Below, piece by piece: positions 1-14,014 of a stretch of DNA of 64,000 nt. The notes below the pieces were generated by a model. It worked only from the letters and a program-made list of their open reading frames with translations. It was not told the DNA's origin and did not search any database. Within the stretch, counting starts at the first letter, position 1. Each line of letters begins with the position of its first letter. A program made the position numbers and the translations under genes. Source of the stretch: Saccharophagus degradans 2-40 (lineage in GTDB: Bacteria; Pseudomonadota; Gammaproteobacteria; Pseudomonadales; Cellvibrionaceae); the NCBI RefSeq assembly GCF_000013665.1, contig NC_007912.1, forward strand, positions 3,217,501-3,281,500. The letters are read 5' to 3'.

Positions 1-1094
<1,094 letters not shown>

Positions 1095-1125
1095 TAACCA
1101 AACTAACAGCTATTACCCCACATAC

Positions 1126-1217
1126 AAAAAGCCCCTGCCTATAGGTGCCGCTCTAGGATCGAGCTTGCAATATAAGCAAGGGCTTGCACTGTGAGCTTAG
1201 CCTTGTGGGCTAAGCTC
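1126..1217. terminator. Structured convergent gap after ilvY and the GH5-like gene
   Basis: A 10-bp perfect hairpin (GAGCTTAGCC at 1193-1202 paired with GGCTAAGCTC at 1208-1217) lies between the two converging genes. On the minus strand a second, longer-range pairing ends in GGGGCTTTTTG (complement of 1126-1134), a plausible terminator for the carbohydrate operon. Neither arm has an ideal T-run directly after a short stem, so the exact terminator is uncertain. Confidence 0.4.
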
Positions 1218-1245
1218 CATTAAAGAATAGAAAGCGGTTAGCGGG

Positions 1246-3798
1246 CTAGTTACCTGCAATCCCACCTTTACCATTTACGATATCTTCACCACGTTCAGTC
1301 AAGGCTGTTGCGTCGCCAACTATGGTGGTCATATCCCAGTCAGAATTTTCGATATCATTTCCGTACCAAGACCAAGCTATCCAAGAGAATGGCTCGCTGC
1401 GCTGATGAATATAAGCAAGCTCCAGAATGTCGTCCTCTAATATTTCACCCTCAATATAGTCGATAGCAAAATCTGTAAAGTGGTTAGTGTAGAAGAAATC
1501 TACCTGATCAATGATCACAACTTCTTTTTCTACTGGAACCATGCCTTCAAAAACTATTTCATCAATTAGTATTGGGTCTTGTGGTAAAGCAACTTCGGAG
1601 GACAGGTCAAAACCGAGGTATTGAGGAATTCCAGCCCGATCGAATTCAGCAGGAAACTCAACCTCAACCACCAAGTCCATCCACTCACCAGGGATAAGCT
1701 CATCTTGGTTCCAAATTTTCGCTGCAAAATGATTTTGCCAGTTAGCATCTTGTAGAAACAGCTGATACTCGAACGCCTGTCCTGTGTAGCTATCTGGAAT
1801 CAATACTCGCGTTTTAATGGTGAACGGGTCCTGCAAATCCAAGTCGTCTATAGCACTTAAGTCGGTTTTATAAAGTACTATTCTCACCGCATCATTGGCA
1901 TTTGGATAGAAATTCAAAGCGCCATCAATGGCCTCTACAGTAGCAGACGCCCCCCAACTCAAGTAAGCCCAGCCATCTTCAGATTCATCGAACGACGCCA
2001 TATACTGCGTACCAAGTTCGAACGAGTCATTAGCTGCTACGCCACTTATAGCAAAGTCGTCCAGCAAAAAAGGCTCTGTGGAATCTGTAATGGTTGCCCC
2101 ATCAGCAATACCTATGTTGCCAATCTGAATGCCTACACTGGTAGCAGCTGCAGGAAATTCGGTTTCGACGGAAATTTCTGTCCACTCTCCAGGAGTAAGC
2201 CCAGTAATTCCAACCTCTGTCCATGCCTCGCCGTTATTGAAAAATTTAGCGTACATCCATGAACCAGCATAATCCGCAGGCACAAAAAACCTGCCACTAA
2301 TAACAACCGGCTGGGCAAAATCAACTACACCACCAAGCCCGTCCAGCTGGGCAATAATTTCTCCATTGTCATGGGTTAGCGATAAAGCACCGTCAGCGTG
2401 CGCAGCAACTGTGCCAGTCCAAGGCACGCCCCAACCTGCAATATCATCATCAAAGCTTTGACTGTATAACTCGACTGCACCACTACCTTCAGCCACTCGA
2501 AGGTTGTCGATAACAACGCTGCCAGCAACCTCGGCGAGCTTGCCATTTGCAACCAACTCAACACCAACTTTAGCGACGGCAGTAATATCAAACGCCTCAC
2601 TTGCCCAGCCGAAAGATGCATTATTCTGAATCGCATAAGATTTAGTAGCCCATTCACCAGCCGGAAATTCAGAGGCAGAGTGCCAAGCTAAGTTTGCATA
2701 TTCTCCATTTACATCTCGGAGGTACATTACAACCCCCATTTGACCATCCGTGACATATGCTTCATCCAGCTTAACGTCAAAGCTCACATCAGTGTTTGTC
2801 AGATTGATAGGTGCTGAGAATGGCACATTCATAGCCACTTTATCTGTAGCGCTCGCCCATGGCAGAATAATTTCTGCGGCGTAATCTCCTGCACCTTTAT
2901 CAAGGATCGCCATATGTTTAACAGGCTTTTCACCGACACCAGAGCCACCAAACTCGCTCATTAGCACAGGGATATTTTGCGCAGCAAGCTGGCTAATTGC
3001 ATCCGTAACTTTAGTAGCCGTGTTCCACTGCGAACCATAACCGTGCACGGACAACACAAGATTGTCTTTATCATCCGCAGCCATAAGCTCTTTACCGCGA
3101 TTACTTAAAAAAGCGTTAAAGTCAGCACCACATCCAGGGGCATCAATTACCAAAGGCACATTAAACCCAGCCTTTCGGAACTGACGAATAGCTGCTTTAT
3201 AGTTATCGGTATACGTTTTGTAACCTACACTATACCCATCAAAAATGGCTTCAGGCCCCCAGCCACTTGCGATGTTAATCATAATATTTGCTTGATAACG
3301 ATCTTGAGCAATAATTGGAAGAAAATCGGTAAGCCATACTTGCTTAACTGCATCCGTAAATGCCTCATCATCTTCTTTACAATGTAAAGCTTCGTCGTAG
3401 AGACTAAGTACAGCTATTAAATTATGCTCAACAACTTTATTTAGCACCGCCTCTAAATTTGCTGTAGATGTATCTGCTAACAATTGAATTCGCACAACGT
3501 TTGAACCTGTTTCGCGAATAGCCTGTATGCCATCTATTTGCTCAATAGGATTGTCGCCAAATTGAAGGTTAATACCTCGCAGCAGCACTGGTGTACCATC
3601 TGGTAGCTGTATAGTAGTACCACTCGTTTTTAACACGGGGGCATTTTCAGACGGCCTAGCTTTAGTTGGATCTTCCGTTACTTCTTCTGGAATCAATTTA
3701 TAGTCTTCGCTGTCAGAGGTGCCCAGCATGTCACCACCACATGCCTGCAACAGCATTGCACTCGCAAGAAATGAAAGTAATTTTATTTTTGTGTTCAT
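1246..3798 (-). CDS. GH5_8-like lipoprotein, probable catalytically degenerate, barrel split by carbohydrate-binding modules
   Basis: An 850-residue predicted outer-membrane lipoprotein (signal peptide with lipobox LQAC). Residues about 55-290 resemble the GH5 subfamily 8 mannanase barrel: strand motifs NVVRIQL, LIAVLSLYDE, IMINIASGW, LVLSVHGY and PVLMSEFGG. The last barrel strand (SWIAWSWYGND and the tail ending NGKGGIAGN) appears only at the C-terminus, about 500 residues later. Between them sit roughly three jelly-roll-like modules, each with Trp/Tyr-rich faces and a closing 'IDEIVFEG'-type strand. In the family motif INIANEW the Asn-Glu acid/base pair is Ser178-Gly179 here, and the strand-3 His is Tyr134; the nucleophile Glu282, His252, Tyr254 and Arg103 remain. 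It is therefore likely a binding protein or altered enzyme. ATG at 3798 has GGAG six bases upstream. It lies 76 nt behind the TonB receptor gene and is probably co-transcribed with it. Confidence 0.75.
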   Translation of the reverse strand: MNTKIKLLSFLASAMLLQACGGDMLGTSDSEDYKLIPEEVTEDPTKARPSENAPVLKTSGTTIQLPDGTPVLLRGINLQFGDNPIEQIDGIQAIRETGSNVVRIQLLADTSTANLEAVLNKVVEHNLIAVLSLYDEALHCKEDDEAFTDAVKQVWLTDFLPIIAQDRYQANIMINIASGWGPEAIFDGYSVGYKTYTDNYKAAIRQFRKAGFNVPLVIDAPGCGADFNAFLSNRGKELMAADDKDNLVLSVHGYGSQWNTATKVTDAISQLAAQNIPVLMSEFGGSGVGEKPVKHMAILDKGAGDYAAEIILPWASATDKVAMNVPFSAPINLTNTDVSFDVKLDEAYVTDGQMGVVMYLRDVNGEYANLAWHSASEFPAGEWATKSYAIQNNASFGWASEAFDITAVAKVGVELVANGKLAEVAGSVVIDNLRVAEGSGAVELYSQSFDDDIAGWGVPWTGTVAAHADGALSLTHDNGEIIAQLDGLGGVVDFAQPVVISGRFFVPADYAGSWMYAKFFNNGEAWTEVGITGLTPGEWTEISVETEFPAAATSVGIQIGNIGIADGATITDSTEPFLLDDFAISGVAANDSFELGTQYMASFDESEDGWAYLSWGASATVEAIDGALNFYPNANDAVRIVLYKTDLSAIDDLDLQDPFTIKTRVLIPDSYTGQAFEYQLFLQDANWQNHFAAKIWNQDELIPGEWMDLVVEVEFPAEFDRAGIPQYLGFDLSSEVALPQDPILIDEIVFEGMVPVEKEVVIIDQVDFFYTNHFTDFAIDYIEGEILEDDILELAYIHQRSEPFSWIAWSWYGNDIENSDWDMTTIVGDATALTERGEDIVNGKGGIAGN

Positions 3799-3824
3799 AT
3801 CAAACTCCAAATATTCAGTGTATT

Positions 3825-3855
3825 CGGCCTCGCTGCATTATTATTTACAAGGCCG
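3825..3855 (-). repeat. Intercistronic hairpin between receptor and GH5-like gene
   Basis: CGGCCT (3825-3830) and AGGCCG (3850-3855) form a 6-bp stem with a 19-nt loop in the 76-nt gap between the two genes. Such hairpins can trim or stabilise the mRNA and set unequal expression of receptor and lipoprotein; this is inference. It is not followed by a T-run, so it is unlikely to be a full terminator. Confidence 0.35.
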
Positions 3856-3874
3856 TTAGGTTCAGGGTTAGCCA

Positions 3875-6800
3875 TTAAAGCGATAGATTTACACCTATGC
3901 TGTAACGTGTTTCCTGTACCCATAGAGAGTGAAATTGCCCTTCGTATTGGGCATAACTTTTTCTACTTTGCTCTGTTAAGTTGTTGCCGCTCGCGAAAAA
4001 GTTAAGGTGCTCGTTCACCCAATAATTCACAGAAAGATCTAAGTAACCAGCAGGCTCTAACCACTGACCAAGCTCCATAACCGCAGCGTTAGAATTCACG
4101 CCTACACGGCCAAGGTACTCTTCACTGCGCCAGTTATACGCCAAACGAACATTCAACCCTGCTCTGTCGTACCACAAAATGAAGTTAGATTGGTGTTGCG
4201 AGTTTGATGGCAACGGGAAAGCATTGCCTTCCACATCCTCACCGCCCGACTCACTATCAGAATAGGTGTAGTTAAATTCTACCCCAGTAGAACTTAAGAA
4301 CTCACCAGGTAAGAAAGTAAACGGCTGCTTGTAACCTAGCTCAGCACCAAATAAGTCGGAAGCACCAACGTTTCTAGTCGTCCAAACATTAGCTACACGG
4401 TCGCGGTCGATACCATCTAAATCTACAAATGGACGCTGCTCTTGAAAGCTTTCTACAGAACTATCAACCTTAATTAAAAACACACCTAAACCTAGGATGG
4501 CATTTTCATCGAAATACCATTCTGCAGACGTATTAAATACGGTAGCGGTCCAAGGCTTGATGTCTGGCTGGCCATTATCACTACCACCACCAATACACCC
4601 TACAGTATCTTGCACCTGTGTACCGTTGGATGGGTTTAGCACCATTACAGGCTCGCCATTCTCATCGGTTTTAGGACACTGTTGATACCACAGCGCCAAA
4701 CTAGAACCCACATTTTCAAGATCGTTACGGGTCATAGTTTTAGATGCACCAACACGCAATATCACATCGTCGCGAGGGAATAAATTTAAATTTATTGACG
4801 GCAAAAGCTCAGTTTGAGAGTTTTCATGTGTAGCCACTTCAGAAACAAAAGCAATTTTTTGCCAATCGTCATAACCAATGGAGTTAAATGAATCCAAAGC
4901 CTCTGGCACAACTATTTGTTCTACTGTTCGGTCGACAGTAACAACTTGCAAACCGACATTACCTTGATATGGAATGCCAAATAGCCCTTCGCTCTCGTTA
5001 CCAAAATCAAGCTGCGCGTAGGTATTGATTGACGCCTCTTTAACAGAGTATGTGTAACCAGGGTCGCTTGCGGTTTGAGTACCAGGGTACAGGCGGTTCA
5101 TAAACTCATAGGGATTATCCCAATCGGCCGGGTCCAAAGATGCAACGCCAGCTTCAAAACCTTTGATTGGGCCAAAATCTCTAAACGCGGTTGTGTCTGC
5201 TGCGGAGAAACCATTGTCTTCTAGTCCGCCTATATCAATTAGACTAGGGTTTGTCTCTGCATAATCAAACTTCAACCAGTTAGGGTATTTTTGCCAAATT
5301 AAATTACCTGGCAATAACCGGTAGCGCTTATCCACCGGCACTCGAGGGTCTTCCCAATCTGTGTAACGCCCTGTACGCGTTACATAATAGAATTTATTAT
5401 GATTTGCTTCGCGCTCGCTATATCGCACACCGCCAGATACCGATTGAATAAAATCGCCATCTAACGCTAATTTAATATCGCCACGAAGAGCGCCAAGTGT
5501 TGCATCTGTGTTCGCGCCATCAGCAAACCCTTGGTACTGTTTTAATAAACTGGCATTAGATAAATCATCTGTGAAACTGAACGCAGGCATATCACCGCGG
5601 TAATCTACAGTTACATGGTAACCATCGATAGGATCTTTCCCTGGAACACCGTTTTCATCGACCCAAAGCCACGCAGGTGTACCCTGCTGAAACGTCGCTT
5701 TACGATATTGCTTTTCGGCTTTGGCATATATAGCGCGAACCGATGCATCGATATTGTCGTTATTGGTGTAGTTAAATTCTAAATTGGTATTTAACGCTGC
5801 AGTTTTATCTATTTCATTAGTAGATGATGTTTGGAAATCTGCGGCCCATACCTCAGCCACTTGCAGAGTATGCAAATCTCTATATTGCGTGACGCCATCG
5901 GAGTCTACAAACGAAATAGTCGAACCTTCACCAACAATAGAATTTGGCTGCAAAGTGTTGTACACATCTGTTTGATACAGCGCAGCATCAGCATCCGCCT
6001 GGAATGACTCGGGAGTAGATTTACCGTTAAAGCCCGCTTTTACTCCACGGTTGTACTGTTCCATTGCGGTGTAAAAAATATCGCCGCGAACCGACCAGTT
6101 ATCATTGATGACAAATTCGGAAGAAATAGAACCACCAGTACGATCACGCTCCACAAAACTACTGCTAGCACCGTACTCCCCAGGCACTATATACCAATCA
6201 TTAACTAAATCACCGTCGCCATCTAAATCGTAAGGGTCACTAGGCGTACCGCCTTGACCATCTAAAAAGGCCAAACGCTGGTCTTCGTACATTGAATAAT
6301 TTGCAGCGTATGAATTGGCTGTATATAGGTTTGTGACTACGGAAAAGCGATCATCGTCATTAAAGCCAAGCACCAAGCTCACGCTATGGTCGGGGGCACG
6401 AGTACTTTTCGAGCCATCTTCTTCGTATTTATCTTTAGATCTAGATCCGGTCGCGCCTTCAATGCGCAGCTTGCCAGTAAAACCCGCGTCTAAACTTGTT
6501 GGGTCCAACGTTTTTAAATCCACAACCCCTGAAATACCGCCTGCAAGTACGTTTGCAGATTGCGATTTATATACGTCGGCGCCACTAATCATGCCTGCTG
6601 GCACATCAGAATAGTTCGCTTGCACACCAGTAATTGCCCAAGGGCTTAGGAATTGTTCGCCGTTCAAGGTTGTGAGAACCTGTGGCATACCACGAATATT
6701 TAGCGATGTACCTTCACCCGCTGAGCGAGTAATTTGCACACCGGTTACACGTTGAAGCGAATCAGTAATGGTTGTATCTGGCAACTTACCAATATCTTCC

Positions 6801-7021
6801 GCAACAATAGAGTCCACTACGTTGGCAGAGTTGCGTTTAATATCAATAGCTTTGGCTTGGGAGGCGCGAACGCCGGTGACGATAACCTCTTCTAGGTTTG
6901 CGTCGTCTTCCACTGTGCTAGTGTCTTCCTCTTGCGCCAAGGCAGAGGTGTTGTAGAGCGCGCAGCTTATTAGCATCGCCAGTAGTTTTTTCTTATGCTG
7001 GATACCGCTGGTGAACGTCAT
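3875..7021 (-). CDS. TonB-dependent outer-membrane receptor, carbohydrate type
   Basis: A 1048-residue receptor: signal peptide ending ...TSALA, TonB-box-like LEEVIVTG at about residue 43, plug domain (DIGKLPDTTITDSLQRVTGVQITR, LNIRGMPQ, then SAGISG-like ISGVVDLKT), and a long beta-barrel ending in an aromatic-rich strand with terminal Leu. The form of the plug and the length match the large TonB receptors that import oligosaccharides in Xanthomonas, Caulobacter and Cellvibrionaceae rather than siderophore receptors. A strong ribosome site (GAGGA) precedes the ATG at 7021. It is followed by the GH5-like lipoprotein, suggesting that the pair captures and imports a mannan- or glucan-type oligosaccharide. 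The substrate is not shown by the sequence. Confidence 0.9.
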   Translation of the reverse strand: MTFTSGIQHKKKLLAMLISCALYNTSALAQEEDTSTVEDDANLEEVIVTGVRASQAKAIDIKRNSANVVDSIVAEDIGKLPDTTITDSLQRVTGVQITRSAGEGTSLNIRGMPQVLTTLNGEQFLSPWAITGVQANYSDVPAGMISGADVYKSQSANVLAGGISGVVDLKTLDPTSLDAGFTGKLRIEGATGSRSKDKYEEDGSKSTRAPDHSVSLVLGFNDDDRFSVVTNLYTANSYAANYSMYEDQRLAFLDGQGGTPSDPYDLDGDGDLVNDWYIVPGEYGASSSFVERDRTGGSISSEFVINDNWSVRGDIFYTAMEQYNRGVKAGFNGKSTPESFQADADAALYQTDVYNTLQPNSIVGEGSTISFVDSDGVTQYRDLHTLQVAEVWAADFQTSSTNEIDKTAALNTNLEFNYTNNDNIDASVRAIYAKAEKQYRKATFQQGTPAWLWVDENGVPGKDPIDGYHVTVDYRGDMPAFSFTDDLSNASLLKQYQGFADGANTDATLGALRGDIKLALDGDFIQSVSGGVRYSEREANHNKFYYVTRTGRYTDWEDPRVPVDKRYRLLPGNLIWQKYPNWLKFDYAETNPSLIDIGGLEDNGFSAADTTAFRDFGPIKGFEAGVASLDPADWDNPYEFMNRLYPGTQTASDPGYTYSVKEASINTYAQLDFGNESEGLFGIPYQGNVGLQVVTVDRTVEQIVVPEALDSFNSIGYDDWQKIAFVSEVATHENSQTELLPSINLNLFPRDDVILRVGASKTMTRNDLENVGSSLALWYQQCPKTDENGEPVMVLNPSNGTQVQDTVGCIGGGSDNGQPDIKPWTATVFNTSAEWYFDENAILGLGVFLIKVDSSVESFQEQRPFVDLDGIDRDRVANVWTTRNVGASDLFGAELGYKQPFTFLPGEFLSSTGVEFNYTYSDSESGGEDVEGNAFPLPSNSQHQSNFILWYDRAGLNVRLAYNWRSEEYLGRVGVNSNAAVMELGQWLEPAGYLDLSVNYWVNEHLNFFASGNNLTEQSRKSYAQYEGQFHSLWVQETRYSIGVNLSL

Positions 7022-7295
7022 GAAGTTTTCCTCGATATTTTATTATGTTTAAAACGTAAATTCGGTACTCTCGCCTGAAATCTATGCCTCAGGCCGCCGA
7101 CGCGCCAAAGCGTGCCCGGCGTTTGGGTTACGCGACCACCTCTCACCAACCGCGTAACCGATATGCATTTTTATGTACATGTAGCCTTAAAAAGCTTGTT
7201 CAGTTATAGCTTAGAAAAAAAGCGGCTACCTAGTAACCGCCTAAATTTAAGACCTTAGAAAATGCAAACCTACAAAAGCGCCTCTCAGCAACCAA

Positions 7296-7309
7296 TGTAA
7301 CCGTTTACA
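7296..7309. promoter_or_regulatory. LacI-family operator upstream of the TonB receptor
   Basis: TGTAACCGTTTACA is a near-perfect palindrome around a central CG, the pattern bound by LacI/GalR-family sugar repressors (general form TGNAANCGNTTNCA). It lies 275 nt upstream of the receptor start codon. No LacI-family gene is in the window, so the regulator would act from elsewhere. Confidence 0.65.
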
Positions 7310-7528
7310 TGACAACAATAACCAAACCTCTCGCGTAAATCAACATCTGATTAATGAATAAAAAGCGAACAGAGGCAGATTAACAAGCAAAACAAGGGTT
7401 TACAGGCAAACTTAAAATCAAATTTATATTGTTTTTCAGAAACTTAGAAGCGTAAACCGCCCCAGAAGAAGGATGCAGACGCCAAAGAAAGGATTAAGAA
7501 TGCGTTTAAATAAAAGAGGAGGAAATTA

Positions 7529-7557
7529 GCGCCAATGACCTCTATAGCCATTGGCGC
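7529..7557 (-). terminator. Terminator-like hairpin after ilvH
   Basis: GCGCCAATG (7529-7537) pairs perfectly with CATTGGCGC (7549-7557) just past the ilvH stop. On the minus strand it is followed by a pyrimidine-rich stretch rather than a clean T-run. It would separate ilvIH from the carbohydrate unit. Confidence 0.55.
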
Positions 7558-7570
7558 CAACTCAAAGTGA

Positions 7571-8062
7571 TTAGAGACTTAGTACTTTTTCGCCGCGCGC
7601 GATGCCAGATACGCCTGAACGCACAACTTCAACAATAGAGGCTTCGCCAACAGCCTGGAAAAACGAGTCAAGCTTTTCACTCGCACCCGTTATTTGAATG
7701 GTGTAAACCGATGCGGTTACATCCACTATTTGACCGCGGAAAATATCCACACAACGCTTAACTTCTGCTCGCTGAGCGCCTGTCGCGCGCACTTTAACCA
7801 ACATGAGCTCTCGCTCTATGTGAGCACCTTCTGTAAGGTCCACCAGCTTAACCACGTCTATCAAGCGATTGAGATGCTTGGTTATCTGCTCTATTTTGTG
7901 GTCGTCTCCCATAGTGGTTAGCGTTAGGCGAGACAAGGTGTTGTCTTCGGTTGGGGCCACAGTAAGAGACTCAATGTTATAACCGCGCTGAGAAAACAAG
8001 CCAACTACACGAGACAATGCGCCTGGTTCGTTTTCCATTAATAAAGATATGATTCTTCTCAT
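7571..8062 (-). CDS. ilvH: Acetolactate synthase, small regulatory subunit
   Basis: A 163-residue regulatory subunit of acetohydroxyacid synthase. It begins [19 protein letters not shown], an ACT domain that binds valine for feedback inhibition, followed by the C-terminal IlvN/IlvH domain (RGQIVDVTASVYTIQITG). The length is typical. Its ATG overlaps the last base of the ilvI stop (TAATG), so the two are translationally coupled. With IlvI it makes acetolactate and acetohydroxybutyrate. Confidence 0.97.
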   Translation of the reverse strand: MRRIISLLMENEPGALSRVVGLFSQRGYNIESLTVAPTEDNTLSRLTLTTMGDDHKIEQITKHLNRLIDVVKLVDLTEGAHIERELMLVKVRATGAQRAEVKRCVDIFRGQIVDVTASVYTIQITGASEKLDSFFQAVGEASIVEVVRSGVSGIARGEKVLSL

Positions 8063-9795
8063 TATGTACGCTCCGACTTACTCAACCACATATCGCGCAT
8101 AGAACCGTTAGGTGCTACCTGCATGGGGTAAACATGCTCGTTCGGGTCGACATAGATATCCATAAACACAGTTTTGTCTTTCATGGCAAAACACTCTTCT
8201 AGCTTGCTTTTAAGCTCTTCACGCTTGGTTACCTTCATACCAACATGGCCGTAGGCTTCCATCAACTTAACAAAATCTGGCAGAGAATCTTCGTACAAGC
8301 TTTCTGAGTAGCGGCTTTCGTATTGCATATCTTGCCACTGTCTAACCATACCTAGCGCTTGGTTATTGATACAAATAATCTTAACCGGCAAGTGATACTG
8401 CGTGCAGGTAGAAAGCTCTTGAATACACATTTGTATACTGCCTTCACCTGTTACACACACCACATTGGCGTCACGATGTGCAATTTGCACGCCCATCGCA
8501 GCAGGTAAACCAAAGCCCATAGTGCCCAAGCCACCAGAGTTGATCCAGCGGCGCGGCTTATCAAACTGGTAGTACTGCGCACTAAACATTTGGTGCTGAC
8601 CCACATCGGAACACACATAAGCGTCGCCACCTGTCACTTCGTGAACCATGCGCACTACTTCTTGCGGCTTAATCATGCCGCCCGTGTCGTAACGCGGGGT
8701 ATCTATGATGCTATAGCGGTCGCGCCATTCGTCTATTTGCTTCCACCAAGAGGCAATCGCTGAGGTATCTGGGCGCTCTTTAGTAGCTTTAACCAGCTCG
8801 AGCATTTCATCTAACACACCTTCCACGGGGCCAACAATTGGCACGTCTGCGGTTACTGTTTTAGATATTGATGCTGGGTCTATATCAATATGAATAATTT
8901 TGGCAGACGGGCAGAACTTTGACGGCGTGTTAGTTACGCGGTCATCAAAGCGAGCACCTACGGCAAATATCACATCGGCGTGATGCATTGCTGTATTCGC
9001 CTCTACCGTGCCGTGCATGCCCAACATGCCCAAAAATTGCTTATCGGTACCAGGAAATGCACCTAGCCCCATCAACGTATTGGTAACGGGGAAGTTAAGT
9101 AGCTTGGCTATTTCAGTAAGTTGATTACTAGCATTACCCTGCACAACACCGCCGCCGGCATAAATAATAGGGCGTCGAGCGCCTAGTAAAAGCTGAACGG
9201 CCTTTTTGATTTGACCAGTATGACCTTTCGCTGCAGGCGTGTAAGAGCGAATTTTTACTTTGTCTGGGTAGCTGTATTCAAACTTATCTACTGGGTTAGT
9301 AATATCTTTGGGGATATCAATAACCACAGGCCCAGGGCGGCCAGTAGAAGCAATATAGAAAGCTTTTTTGACAATCTCGGGTATGTCTTTGGCATGCTTA
9401 ACAAGAAAGCTGTGCTTAACGATTGGGCGCGACACCCCCACCATATCGGTTTCTTGGAACGCGTCTTCACCAATCTTATCGGAAGCCACCTGCCCCGAAA
9501 TTACAACCATTGGAATTGAATCCATATAGGCTGTAGCAATACCCGTAATGGCATTGGTAGCACCTGGACCAGAAGTCACCAGCACCGTGCCCACCTTACC
9601 GGTTGAACGTGCGTAGCCATCTGCAGCGTGTGTTGCAGCTTGCTCGTGGCGCACCAAAATGTGCTGGACTCGCTTCTGACGAAATACTGCATCATATATA
9701 TGCAGTGCGGCACCGCCTGGGTAACCAAATAAATATTCAACGCCTTCGTCTGCAAGCGCGCGAATTAACATGTCTCCGCCGGAGAGTTTTTCCAC
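8062..9795 (-). CDS. ilvI: Acetolactate synthase, large catalytic subunit
   Basis: A thiamine-diphosphate enzyme catalysing the first common step of branched-chain amino-acid synthesis. It shows the N-terminal [30 protein letters not shown] with the catalytic Glu region ([20 protein letters not shown]), a central FAD-binding domain, and the C-terminal ThDP motif [14 protein letters not shown]...GEGSIQM...NN. I prefer the GTG at 9795 ([10 protein letters not shown]), preceded by AGAGGA at good spacing and matching the family start. An ATG at 9828 would add 11 residues but has no evident ribosome site. It is coupled to ilvH downstream. Confidence 0.95.
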
Positions 9796-10237
9796 CTGCT
9801 TTATCCTCTGATGTCCATCATATTTCATCTATGATGGAGTATTTAACGGCTTAATAGGCCCGTACCCCTCTAACCTAGCGATGGAGGGTAATTAGGGCAA
9901 ATAACTGGAATAGAAGTTCCGGTAAGGGCGATGTGGGCGCACTTCAAAGCAAACATTATTAGGCCAATACACCTATAAATAGTATTTACTTATTACCGGA
10001 AGGGCGCATGGTTTAGCACCCTTGCACTTCAGGATGGTTTGGTAAGCGGTTGACTTACCAGAGCAGAGCAAGAGGCCGAGGTTATTCGGCAAATCTACTA
10101 GCCACCTGGTGATTGGGGGACATTCTCTCAGGTATGCCATTAATGTCAAGAGAACCGCCAAATCCCGCATCGTCTGATAGACTTAATAATTAGCAAATTT
10201 GACAAATAAACGCGCATTTAACCAGAAGTCTCCCATT
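9796..10237. other. Divergent control region between ilvI and the epimerase-like gene
   Basis: About 440 nt with no convincing gene. On the minus (ilvI) strand there are two hairpins: GGTAAG/CTTACC (about 10039-10057) and GGGTGC/GCGCCC (about 10005-10024). An open frame at 10170-9973 encodes 65 residues rich in Leu, Val and Ile near its start, which could be an attenuation leader peptide, but no terminator with a T-run is seen before ilvI. Treat it as an untranslated leader of unknown control. Confidence 0.4.
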
Positions 10238-11949: not shown

Positions 11950-13785
11950 CTAGTCGTGAGTATGCGTAAGCGAGTAGAACGTCGCTTGCACATAGTCTGA
12001 ACCATTTCCAGTATTGTTCTGATTGTATACGCCCGCTTTGAAATACATCCAATCGTCGGAGTCGTCGTAACCACTATTAACCATGTTGTACTGGCTTGTT
12101 ACTGTTGATTTACCATCACGGTAAATTTTCACAGTTAACATATTGTTAGTTACATCAATCTCGTAGCTAAACACCTCGTTCAATGCAATGCCATCTGAAG
12201 GATTAGAAGCACTACTGCTGCGCGAACCAATCATATCTACCCAAACCTCACCGCCATCGGCATCTTCGTGAGCGTAATAAATACCGCCTTTAGAGTTACC
12301 GGGTAGCTTGCGATAGTACAGGCGAATAGGCTCGTTTTTTTCGGCGTGAATCTGACCGATAATGACGCGCCCCACCTGTGAGCTATCGCCCGTGGTTGTT
12401 ACATAATTCACTGCTAGGGTTGCTTTCATGTTGCCGTCAACACCGCCAGCCGCTGCCTGCGCACTGCTAGGTGCCGAACCAAACACCCAGTTATTTTTAT
12501 TTACACCACTGGTAGCAATTGATGTATTACCCGCACGCAACATTTCACGCAATTCGGTGCGCGTATAGCTGGTACCAGTAGATGTTTTATAGCCAGAAAT
12601 TGGACACTTAAATACCATGCCACCATCAGAACCCGTGTAAAAGTAACTGTTATTCTCGTAGCCCGAGTTCAACTCACCTTCTTTAATGCTGTCTGCCGTA
12701 CCGCTACCATCTGTATCGGTAGGCACGCTGAGGTACCACTGAGAAAGGTTAAAATTACTTGAAGGAGGCGCGTTAGGGTTCAGGTTAAACCCGCCCGAGC
12801 TAGAACTTGTGCTGGAAGTAGAACTAGTACTAGACGTAGAGCTAGATGAACTAGAACTGCTAGATGACCCGCCATCAGCCCCATAAATTTCAACCTCGGT
12901 AATATTCGTCCAAGTGGTACCAGCAGTATTCTCAAAAGTTTTTACTCGAATTTGCTGAGCATCAATATCAGTAATATCAAACACTTCAATACCCGCCGTC
13001 GAACCGCTACTCACATCATCAAACACTTTTGTCCAAGAGCCGCTAGTGCCTGGTCGCGCATAGATTTCGAACGTATACGCGCGAGAGCCGCCCTGCCCCC
13101 ATGCAATGCCCACTTCAGTTACGCGGCTAGTTTGTTCAAGCTGAATAGTTAGATTTACTGGCGAGCCAGAAGCAGCCCAGCGCGAAGCCCAAGCGGTGTT
13201 GCCGTCAATGGCTTTTGATGCTGGGTAGCTGCTGTGACTTGAACCGTCGTCAAATGCAGTTGCAATAGCAAGCTTGCCATCACCTGTATCTTCATCTGTG
13301 CGAATAAATTCCCACTGCTGGTTAACGTTATTACTGTTTGAATTCCATAAATAAATCGCCTGCCTTGCAGCCGCTCCACCGTTACCATCTATAGAGAAAC
13401 CCGGTGCATTGCGCTTTTCCATGCGATAAATTTCGGTGCCCGTGTATACTTTCACTTTGTTCCAGTGCTGGTCGTAATTGCTCGAATCACACACCTCTAG
13501 TGTGACAGGCTGAAGGCGGGCACCACCACTGCCACCGTCTAAGCATAAATTCGTATTTTGTTTTTTATAGGAGTAGTAACCGCCACCATGGCTAATTTGA
13601 ACCCAGTTCTGGTTGACGTTATTGGTATTTGTTTCCCAAAGGTAAACCTGACGCGCCTCCACAGCGCCGTTGCCACCGTCGACGGAAAACCCTGTATTTA
13701 CCTTTTCTAAAACAAAAGTTGCAGCATTCGCGAGCGACGCAGAAGCTATTAACGCACCTGCGCCCATGATTTTGATGAATGTCAT
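11950..13785 (-). CDS. Secreted modular alginate lyase, CBM13-CBM32-PL7
   Basis: A 611-residue secreted enzyme. After a signal peptide (cleavage near residue 21) comes a ricin-type CBM13 (about 22-162) with three QxW repeats (NQNW, DQHW, NQQW), then a CBM32/discoidin-like domain (about 170-304), a Ser/Thr linker (about 307-331), and the PL7 catalytic domain (about 345-611). PL7 signatures are all present: RTELREML, the QIH triad region (IIGQIHAEK) and YFKAGVYNQ near the C-terminus. PL7 enzymes cleave alginate by beta-elimination; QIH variants commonly accept polyguluronate or mixed blocks. The poly-Ser linker is typical of Saccharophagus/Cellvibrio secreted enzymes. The ATG at 13785 opens a clean signal peptide; a TTG two codons upstream is less likely. 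A CRP-type site lies 378 nt upstream. Confidence 0.95.
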   Translation of the reverse strand: MTFIKIMGAGALIASASLANAATFVLEKVNTGFSVDGGNGAVEARQVYLWETNTNNVNQNWVQISHGGGYYSYKKQNTNLCLDGGSGGARLQPVTLEVCDSSNYDQHWNKVKVYTGTEIYRMEKRNAPGFSIDGNGGAAARQAIYLWNSNSNNVNQQWEFIRTDEDTGDGKLAIATAFDDGSSHSSYPASKAIDGNTAWASRWAASGSPVNLTIQLEQTSRVTEVGIAWGQGGSRAYTFEIYARPGTSGSWTKVFDDVSSGSTAGIEVFDITDIDAQQIRVKTFENTAGTTWTNITEVEIYGADGGSSSSSSSSSSTSSTSSTSSTSSSSGGFNLNPNAPPSSNFNLSQWYLSVPTDTDGSGTADSIKEGELNSGYENNSYFYTGSDGGMVFKCPISGYKTSTGTSYTRTELREMLRAGNTSIATSGVNKNNWVFGSAPSSAQAAAGGVDGNMKATLAVNYVTTTGDSSQVGRVIIGQIHAEKNEPIRLYYRKLPGNSKGGIYYAHEDADGGEVWVDMIGSRSSSASNPSDGIALNEVFSYEIDVTNNMLTVKIYRDGKSTVTSQYNMVNSGYDDSDDWMYFKAGVYNQNNTGNGSDYVQATFYSLTHTHD

Positions 13786-14014
13786 ATACAATCCCGTAGT
13801 ATCTACTTAATTATTTTTTATGAAGCCAAACTGAGTTAACTACACATTCTTCTTACAGCGCATATTTGTAAAAACGGCTTAGAATTTTTTAAATAAAAGA
13901 AGACTACAACTCAAGGCACCCAGCCTGAACAGCCGAGCCGCTAGATATTACGGCAAGTGGGCACCACCACAGATATTGTCAATAAAACACTAAGGTTAAA
14001 TTGATGCACCTTTC

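Follow-up and report, generated by a model that had tools for sequence, protein, structure and literature searches.

To our knowledge, how long polysaccharides are captured by TonB-dependent receptors outside the Bacteroidota, without SusD, is poorly understood. The window analyzed here, a stretch of 64,000 nucleotides from Saccharophagus degradans 2-40, raises this question in a specific form. Directly downstream of a TonB receptor gene, it carries a gene for a lipoprotein that resembles the mannanases of GH5 subfamily 8 (GH5_8), yet departs from them at a catalytic residue. Is this protein still an enzyme, or does it bind mannan for the receptor?

Results

The gene had been predicted at positions 1246-3798, which proved correct, the reading being from the minus strand (Table 1). 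It ends with a TAG stop codon at 1248-1246, and its product begins with MNTKIKLLSFLASAMLLQAC followed by GG. The lipobox Cys20 is present in 32/32 homologues and, as it is followed by GG, there is no Asp for inner-membrane retention. A surface location is presumed here. The lipoprotein has no match in NCBIfam, and no full-length copy of the split lipoprotein was found on plasmids.

Table 1. Positions in the window of the lipoprotein gene, its parts and the neighboring elements.
Feature	Position	Strand	Basis
GH5_8-like lipoprotein gene, 850 aa	1246..3798	minus	ORF and about 33 homologues
Signal peptide and lipobox (LLQAC before GG), residues 1-20	3739..3798	minus	sequence
N-terminal TIM barrel part, residues 54-303 (strands 1-7, helix 7)	2890..3639	minus	sequence match and model
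Cys140, invariant in the split family, not in GH5_8 enzymes	3379..3381	minus	alignment
Lost acid/base motif, Ser178-Gly179 for GH5_8 Asn-Glu	3262..3267	minus	alignment, tree
Cys223, invariant in the split family; Trp there in the genome's GH5_8 enzymes	3130..3132	minus	alignment
Nucleophile Glu282, kept in the window protein	2953..2955	minus	alignment
Module 1, jelly roll, residues 304-438	2485..2889	minus	model; weak SGBP_B_XBD (PF18329) match, better in homologues
Module 2, jelly roll, residues 439-591	2026..2484	minus	structural match to CBM22, mannan-binding CBM27, CBM of 1wky
Module 3, jelly roll, residues about 592-762	1513..2025	minus	structural match to CBM15, CBM22, CBM27, CBM29, CBM11
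C-terminal barrel part, residues 799-850 (strand 8 SWIAWSWYGN, last helix)	1249..1404	minus	sequence match and model
Inverted repeat GAGCTTAGCC-CACAA-GGCTAAGCTC, 3' of the lipoprotein stop codon, before the convergent LysR gene	1193..1217	minus	
TonB-dependent receptor, 1048 aa (TIGR01782), directly upstream of the lipoprotein gene	3875..7021	minus	
Palindromic LacI-type operator TGTAACCGTTTACA, upstream of the receptor	7296..7309	.	pattern counts

The Pfam model PF00150 matches residues 67-290 (3.2e-12), which is not a chance match. For the whole protein, the best match in the PDB was the GH5_8 mannanase 1wky of Bacillus JAMB-602 (E 1.2e-18). In this alignment, residues 54-285 cover strands 1-7; residues 788-847, a second and weak segment, match the eighth strand and the final helix, with WSW at strand 8. 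An AlphaFold model was built from 18 homologues (mean pLDDT 79, pTM 0.58). On solved GH5_8 mannanases, 279-284 of its residues, ranging from about 54 to 850, aligned on one barrel (rmsd 1.6-2.2 Å, Z 37-39.5), the remaining GH5 enzymes reaching at most Z 25.8. For example, 2whj superposed with residues 54-303 and about 799-850 (Z 39.5, 1.6 Å, 284/308 residues). Since both ends of the protein superpose on one mannanase barrel, its middle is an insert. The original prediction was that both ends form a single TIM barrel, that the extra modules lie between strands 7 and 8, and that the C-terminal WSW segment supplies the last barrel strand. All of this holds in the model, and the insertion point can be placed between helix 7 and strand 8 (the unsplit relatives read DHFRIMEQAQSNDLGWVAWSWRGN, the window protein KHMAILDKGAG, then the insert, then PFSWIAWSWYGN). 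The alternative of a separate C-terminal domain was rejected, since in the model this segment is part of the barrel. As modeled, the window barrel is of the GH5_8-type (beta/alpha)8 kind.

The active-site residues read in the original prediction were confirmed (Arg103, Tyr134, Ser178-Gly179, His252, Tyr254, Glu282). INIANEW has become INIASGW, the acid/base Glu being absent when the protein is aligned to mannanases, and the nucleophile Glu282 is retained together with His252, Tyr254 and Arg103. A GH5_8 mannanase requires two catalytic Glu. The window protein has Glu282 and, at the other position, Gly179; as the acid/base Glu is missing, we do not file it as a mannanase. Tyr134 does stand in place of the strand-3 His, as had been stated, but it is not by itself a sign of inactivation: unsplit relatives with both Glu lack this His too, and its loss was rejected as a mark of inactivity.

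Homologues were collected from the taxonomic family and order of the window and from GTDB genomes, giving 33 distinct proteins, 32 of them full length. The acid/base position is G in 17, E in 10, Q in 3, A in 2 and K in 1, with a slight bias because the contig-scan pattern admitted G, E or A there, the whole-genome profile search being free of it. At the nucleophile position we found E (20), G (5), A (4), S (3) and D (1). About a third of the split family (10/33) retains both catalytic Glu, the strand-6 His is present in 24 of 33, and none of the 33 has the strand-3 His. Trp180, Gly181, Trp258 and Cys223 are invariant (33/33), and so is Cys140 (32/32), which could pair with Cys223. Three extra homologues outside this set have Gly at the acid/base position, and two of them, from Cellvibrio, lack the strand-6 His and Trp258. 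His252, Tyr254 and Glu282 are retained in most of the window protein's own clade.

The split family was found in the Cellvibrionaceae and Alteromonadaceae (Cellvibrio, Marinimicrobium, Gilvimarinus, Teredinibacter, Marinagarivorans, Paraglaciecola and Catenovulum), and in only 32/144 genomes of the window's taxonomic family. In a tree of the barrel, GH5_8 enzymes served as the root and the seven catalytic columns were excluded. The split proteins form one clade (support 100/99); several deeper branches of the tree are weakly supported. Three unsplit domains of large enzymes (Neiella, Colwellia and genome G417) are sisters of this clade, and they keep both Glu and have Trp at the strand-3 His position. 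The first-branching split members (Teredinibacter, Catenovulum, Paraglaciecola, AOL6) also have both Glu. At minimum, the tree requires one loss of the acid/base and two losses of the nucleophile, which the clade sister to the window's has lost as well. Descent from a GH5_8-type mannanase, as originally proposed, is thus supported by the rooted tree, with its basal members that have both Glu. The likely order of events is loss of the strand-3 His, insertion, loss of the acid/base and, in one clade, loss of the nucleophile. The unsplit sister barrel, with both Glu, is housed in very large multidomain proteins (L053:8993-12994, L054:7133-12871, L153:6345-11702), which are probably active enzymes. 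Judged by eye, the unsplit barrel of L053 and L054 is followed by another GH5-like domain of mannanase type.

The three jelly-roll-like modules expected between the nucleophile strand and the last strand are present in the model, at about residues 304-438, 439-591 and 592-756. The insert was also modeled separately, with an unsure placement of the modules relative to one another (pLDDT 81.6, pTM 0.43). Modules 2 and 3 match the fold of the mannan-binding CBM27 with Z 14.2 (1of3/1oh4) and 12.5 (1pmh). More generally, the likeness of the modules to CBM27, CBM22 and CBM15 is one of fold (Z 12-15), with only about 11-19% structural-alignment identity. The window's own modules score under the Pfam cut-offs, module 1 reaching E 0.02 with PF18329 and module 2 having no CBM family match in Pfam, and the modules of homologues do match Mann_GBD_bact and SGBP_B_XBD. 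For PF18329 the homologues reach 1.7e-7 (full length 3.8e-10), Mann_GBD_bact (PF21253) was found in four members of the module set (best 1.2e-7), and CBM_15 in one (0.0099). Module 1 and modules 2/3 are remote relatives (hhalign probability 96.5); the module-1 profile had no match in the PDB. The inserted modules probably bind glycan. Paraglaciecola (L044:10919-12808) and BrNp21 (L043:10916-12823) have an additional, apparently duplicated insert module, with an insert of about 630 residues, vs. 460-510 in the others.

The receptor and lipoprotein genes of the window are separated by 76 bases, with no terminator-like site. A close relative of this receptor is encoded directly upstream, on the same strand, in 32/32 loci with visible upstream sequence. 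Homologues with the acid/base substitution were expected beside TonB receptors; they are, and the pairing extends to every member checked. The pair forms part of a beta-mannan locus in Marinimicrobium alkaliphilum, Paraglaciecola and two MAGs. In relatives, such a locus contains GH130, two epimerases, a LacI regulator and a symporter (the last two assigned by eye), and GH27 and a carbohydrate acetylesterase adjoin other family members. The window pair stands apart, with ilv genes on one side and a LysR gene on the other. No mannan enzyme was found close to the lipoprotein gene within the window, and the mannan locus of the host genome is about 2.6 Mb away. In Gilvimarinus and Marinimicrobium agarilyticum (L045, L046, L049, L123), the pair is likewise beside LysR and ilv genes, as in window 171-9828, and these copies lack both catalytic Glu. 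The window also encodes an alginate lyase of PL7 type that carries ricin-B lectin and F5/8 type C domains (11950-13791).

The operator upstream of the receptor was followed by pattern-search counts in the genome, on which its statistics rest: TGTAANCGNTTACA has 9 exact sites in 5.06 Mb, vs. 1 for the reversed control. Apart from the window site, exact sites lie upstream of an AGE epimerase and of a GH26+CBM10 protein, in the gap between the LacI gene and GH130 and in that between an MFS_2 transporter and a GH-A-like lipoprotein, and at a 542-aa protein without Pfam match. Three exact copies with a GCGC centre belong to a different LacI/GH1-like cluster. A site with one mismatch is found upstream of each of the two GH5_8 mannanases and of one GH27. 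Of 23 loci, 16 have the operator in the 600 bases ahead of the receptor, with 0.03 expected from shuffles and a background of 11/746 in other 600-base stretches; it is missing in G210, G289, G505, G509, Teredinibacter, AOL6 and BrNp21. The LacI protein of the mannan locus presumably binds the window operator.

A second LacI-type palindrome, TGTAAGCGCTTACA, whose centre is unlike that of the mannan operator, occurs three times around a GH1-like/MFS/LacI/TonB-receptor cluster (L152, G000:C1:1802500-1815000). Between the window operator and the receptor start codon, the leader contains a strong stem-loop with a T run behind it (7220-7242, minus strand), which could be an attenuator; an Rfam scan of this leader gave no match. 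Two similar-looking secreted proteins, L143:4490-6118 (operator upstream, no Pfam match) and L054:13334-15163 (adjoining a large unsplit enzyme), possibly represent an undescribed mannan-linked GH-A family.

Discussion

We consider it probable that the window lipoprotein is a non-catalytic surface protein that captures beta-mannan for the TonB receptor. We infer binding, inactivity, contact with the receptor and the identity of the regulator from the modeled architecture, the acid/base loss in the alignment, the receptor pairing, the shared operator and the mannan genes beside relatives. The gene neighborhood and the shared operator point to beta-mannan as the target. According to this scheme, the lipoprotein would sit in the outer membrane, catch beta-mannan (galacto- or glucomannan) at the cell surface and hand the chains to the receptor of the same operon, in the manner of a surface glycan-binding protein (SGBP) of Bacteroidota. 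Cutting would be carried out by secreted GH5_8 and GH26 enzymes and GH27, encoded elsewhere in the genome under the shared operator. The barrel itself may today hold glycan in its cleft without cutting it, or act as a scaffold on which the modules are displayed.

The retained nucleophile, Arg103, His252 and Tyr254 speak against this reading, and would suit a slow or unusual enzyme that combines the nucleophile with another acid, relies on substrate assistance or acts as a transglycosidase. The basal relatives with both Glu may indeed be active. However, Glu183 (WGPEAIF), which had been offered as a possible stand-in for the acid/base, is replaced by Lys, Ala or Thr in the six closest relatives; as it is not conserved, it is an unlikely substitute and was disfavored. 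The alignment of relatives shows no new conserved acid near the lost one, and the sister clade has lost the nucleophile as well, so that we hold residual catalysis to be improbable. As about a third of the family has both Glu, the role shared by its members need not depend on inactivity. At the other extreme, the barrel could be a mere scaffold: the modules would bind mannan and the old cleft nothing, the barrel only holding the modules or docking on the receptor. The modules are CBM-like, catalytic-site residues vary freely across much of the family, and there is a precedent, which also counts against mannan capture, in an inactive GH18-like PUL protein whose barrel had no measurable glycan binding (PMC11180146). 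Nevertheless, none of the 33 proteins varies at Trp180, Gly181 or Trp258, which lie next to the former catalytic residues, and His252, Tyr254 and Glu282 are mostly kept in the window's clade, which suggests that the cleft is still selected and leaves the pure scaffold rather unlikely.

Two further roles can be envisaged. A lipoprotein with several CBM-like modules could be an adhesin fixing cells to mannan-rich plant or algal walls independently of the receptor, but a receptor gene lies directly upstream in every locus checked and it is the receptor gene that the operator precedes; we regard this as quite improbable. A mannan sensor would recall the anti-sigma factor Rsi24C, whose GH5 domain, without acid/base, belongs to the sole functionally studied GH5 protein of this type, a putative sensor (PMC3526467). 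Against this, the family scan revealed no transmembrane or cytoplasmic signaling domain, and the mannan locus already has its LacI-type regulator, which makes a sensor very unlikely indeed.

Mannan capture for the receptor thus remains our preferred reading. Its history would start from a GH5_8-type mannanase, into which three CBM-like modules entered between helix 7 and strand 8 before the acid/base Glu was lost. The family contains stages with both Glu kept, with the acid/base lost and with both lost. We tentatively suggest, as an idea about as open to doubt as to belief and leaning to doubt, that Gammaproteobacteria without SusD made their own counterpart, a mannan-capturing subunit of the TonB receptor, from a mannanase barrel split by three CBMs, in which catalysis then decayed.

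The split family offers a concrete and widespread candidate partner for TonB receptors, with a predicted substrate (beta-mannan) and regulon. Cellvibrio japonicus, which is genetically tractable, has a probable orthologue and so allows direct testing, and the family is a good series for the transition from enzyme to binding protein. Also, it calls for caution with the automatic annotation of such genes as GH5 cellulase or mannanase.

The core of this proposal is not new. Aspeborg et al. (2012) described an "emerging non-catalytic GH5 subfamily" of GH5_8-related lipoproteins, with three members not named in the main text (PMC3526467), and the window protein, a lipoprotein near GH5_8 with incomplete GH5 machinery, very probably belongs to the same family. 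Both are GH5_8-related lipoproteins with lost catalytic residues and a long extra region. This region was described as a "large C-terminal extension", whereas here it lies within the barrel, ahead of strand 8; the receptor pairing, the mannan regulon and the graded loss go beyond the 2012 description. No published account of the split barrel, of the receptor pairing, of the graded loss or of the operator regulon came to light, and these features appear undescribed; nor did the literature yield anything specific on inactive-GH surface binders with TonB in Gammaproteobacteria.

Compared with the GH5_8 mannanases 1wky, 2whj and 1bqc, the barrel is alike (rmsd 1.6-2.0 Å, 24-29% structural-alignment identity), but the window protein is a lipoprotein with three modules within the barrel, without the acid/base Glu and the strand-3 His, and with two new invariant Cys. 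A CBM within a mannanase domain is also known from BcWH2_GH26 with its intercalated CBM112, likewise a lipoprotein of a mannan PUL, which is however a GH26, carries one module, is an active enzyme and comes from Bacteroides (PMC13357471). The GH18-like proteins BT1284 and that of B. faecium share with the window protein an inactivated GH barrel and a beta-sandwich in a TonB-linked PUL, but their barrel is a GH18 and the domain is N-terminal instead of internal, and BT1284 is the one without measurable glycan binding (PMC11180146). Finally, like SGBP-A/B of Bacteroidota, the window protein is a lipoprotein encoded beside a TonB-dependent receptor for glycan (lipobox; 32/32 loci) and has beta-sandwich modules, one of them weakly PF18329-like; unlike them, it is gammaproteobacterial and built on a mannanase barrel.
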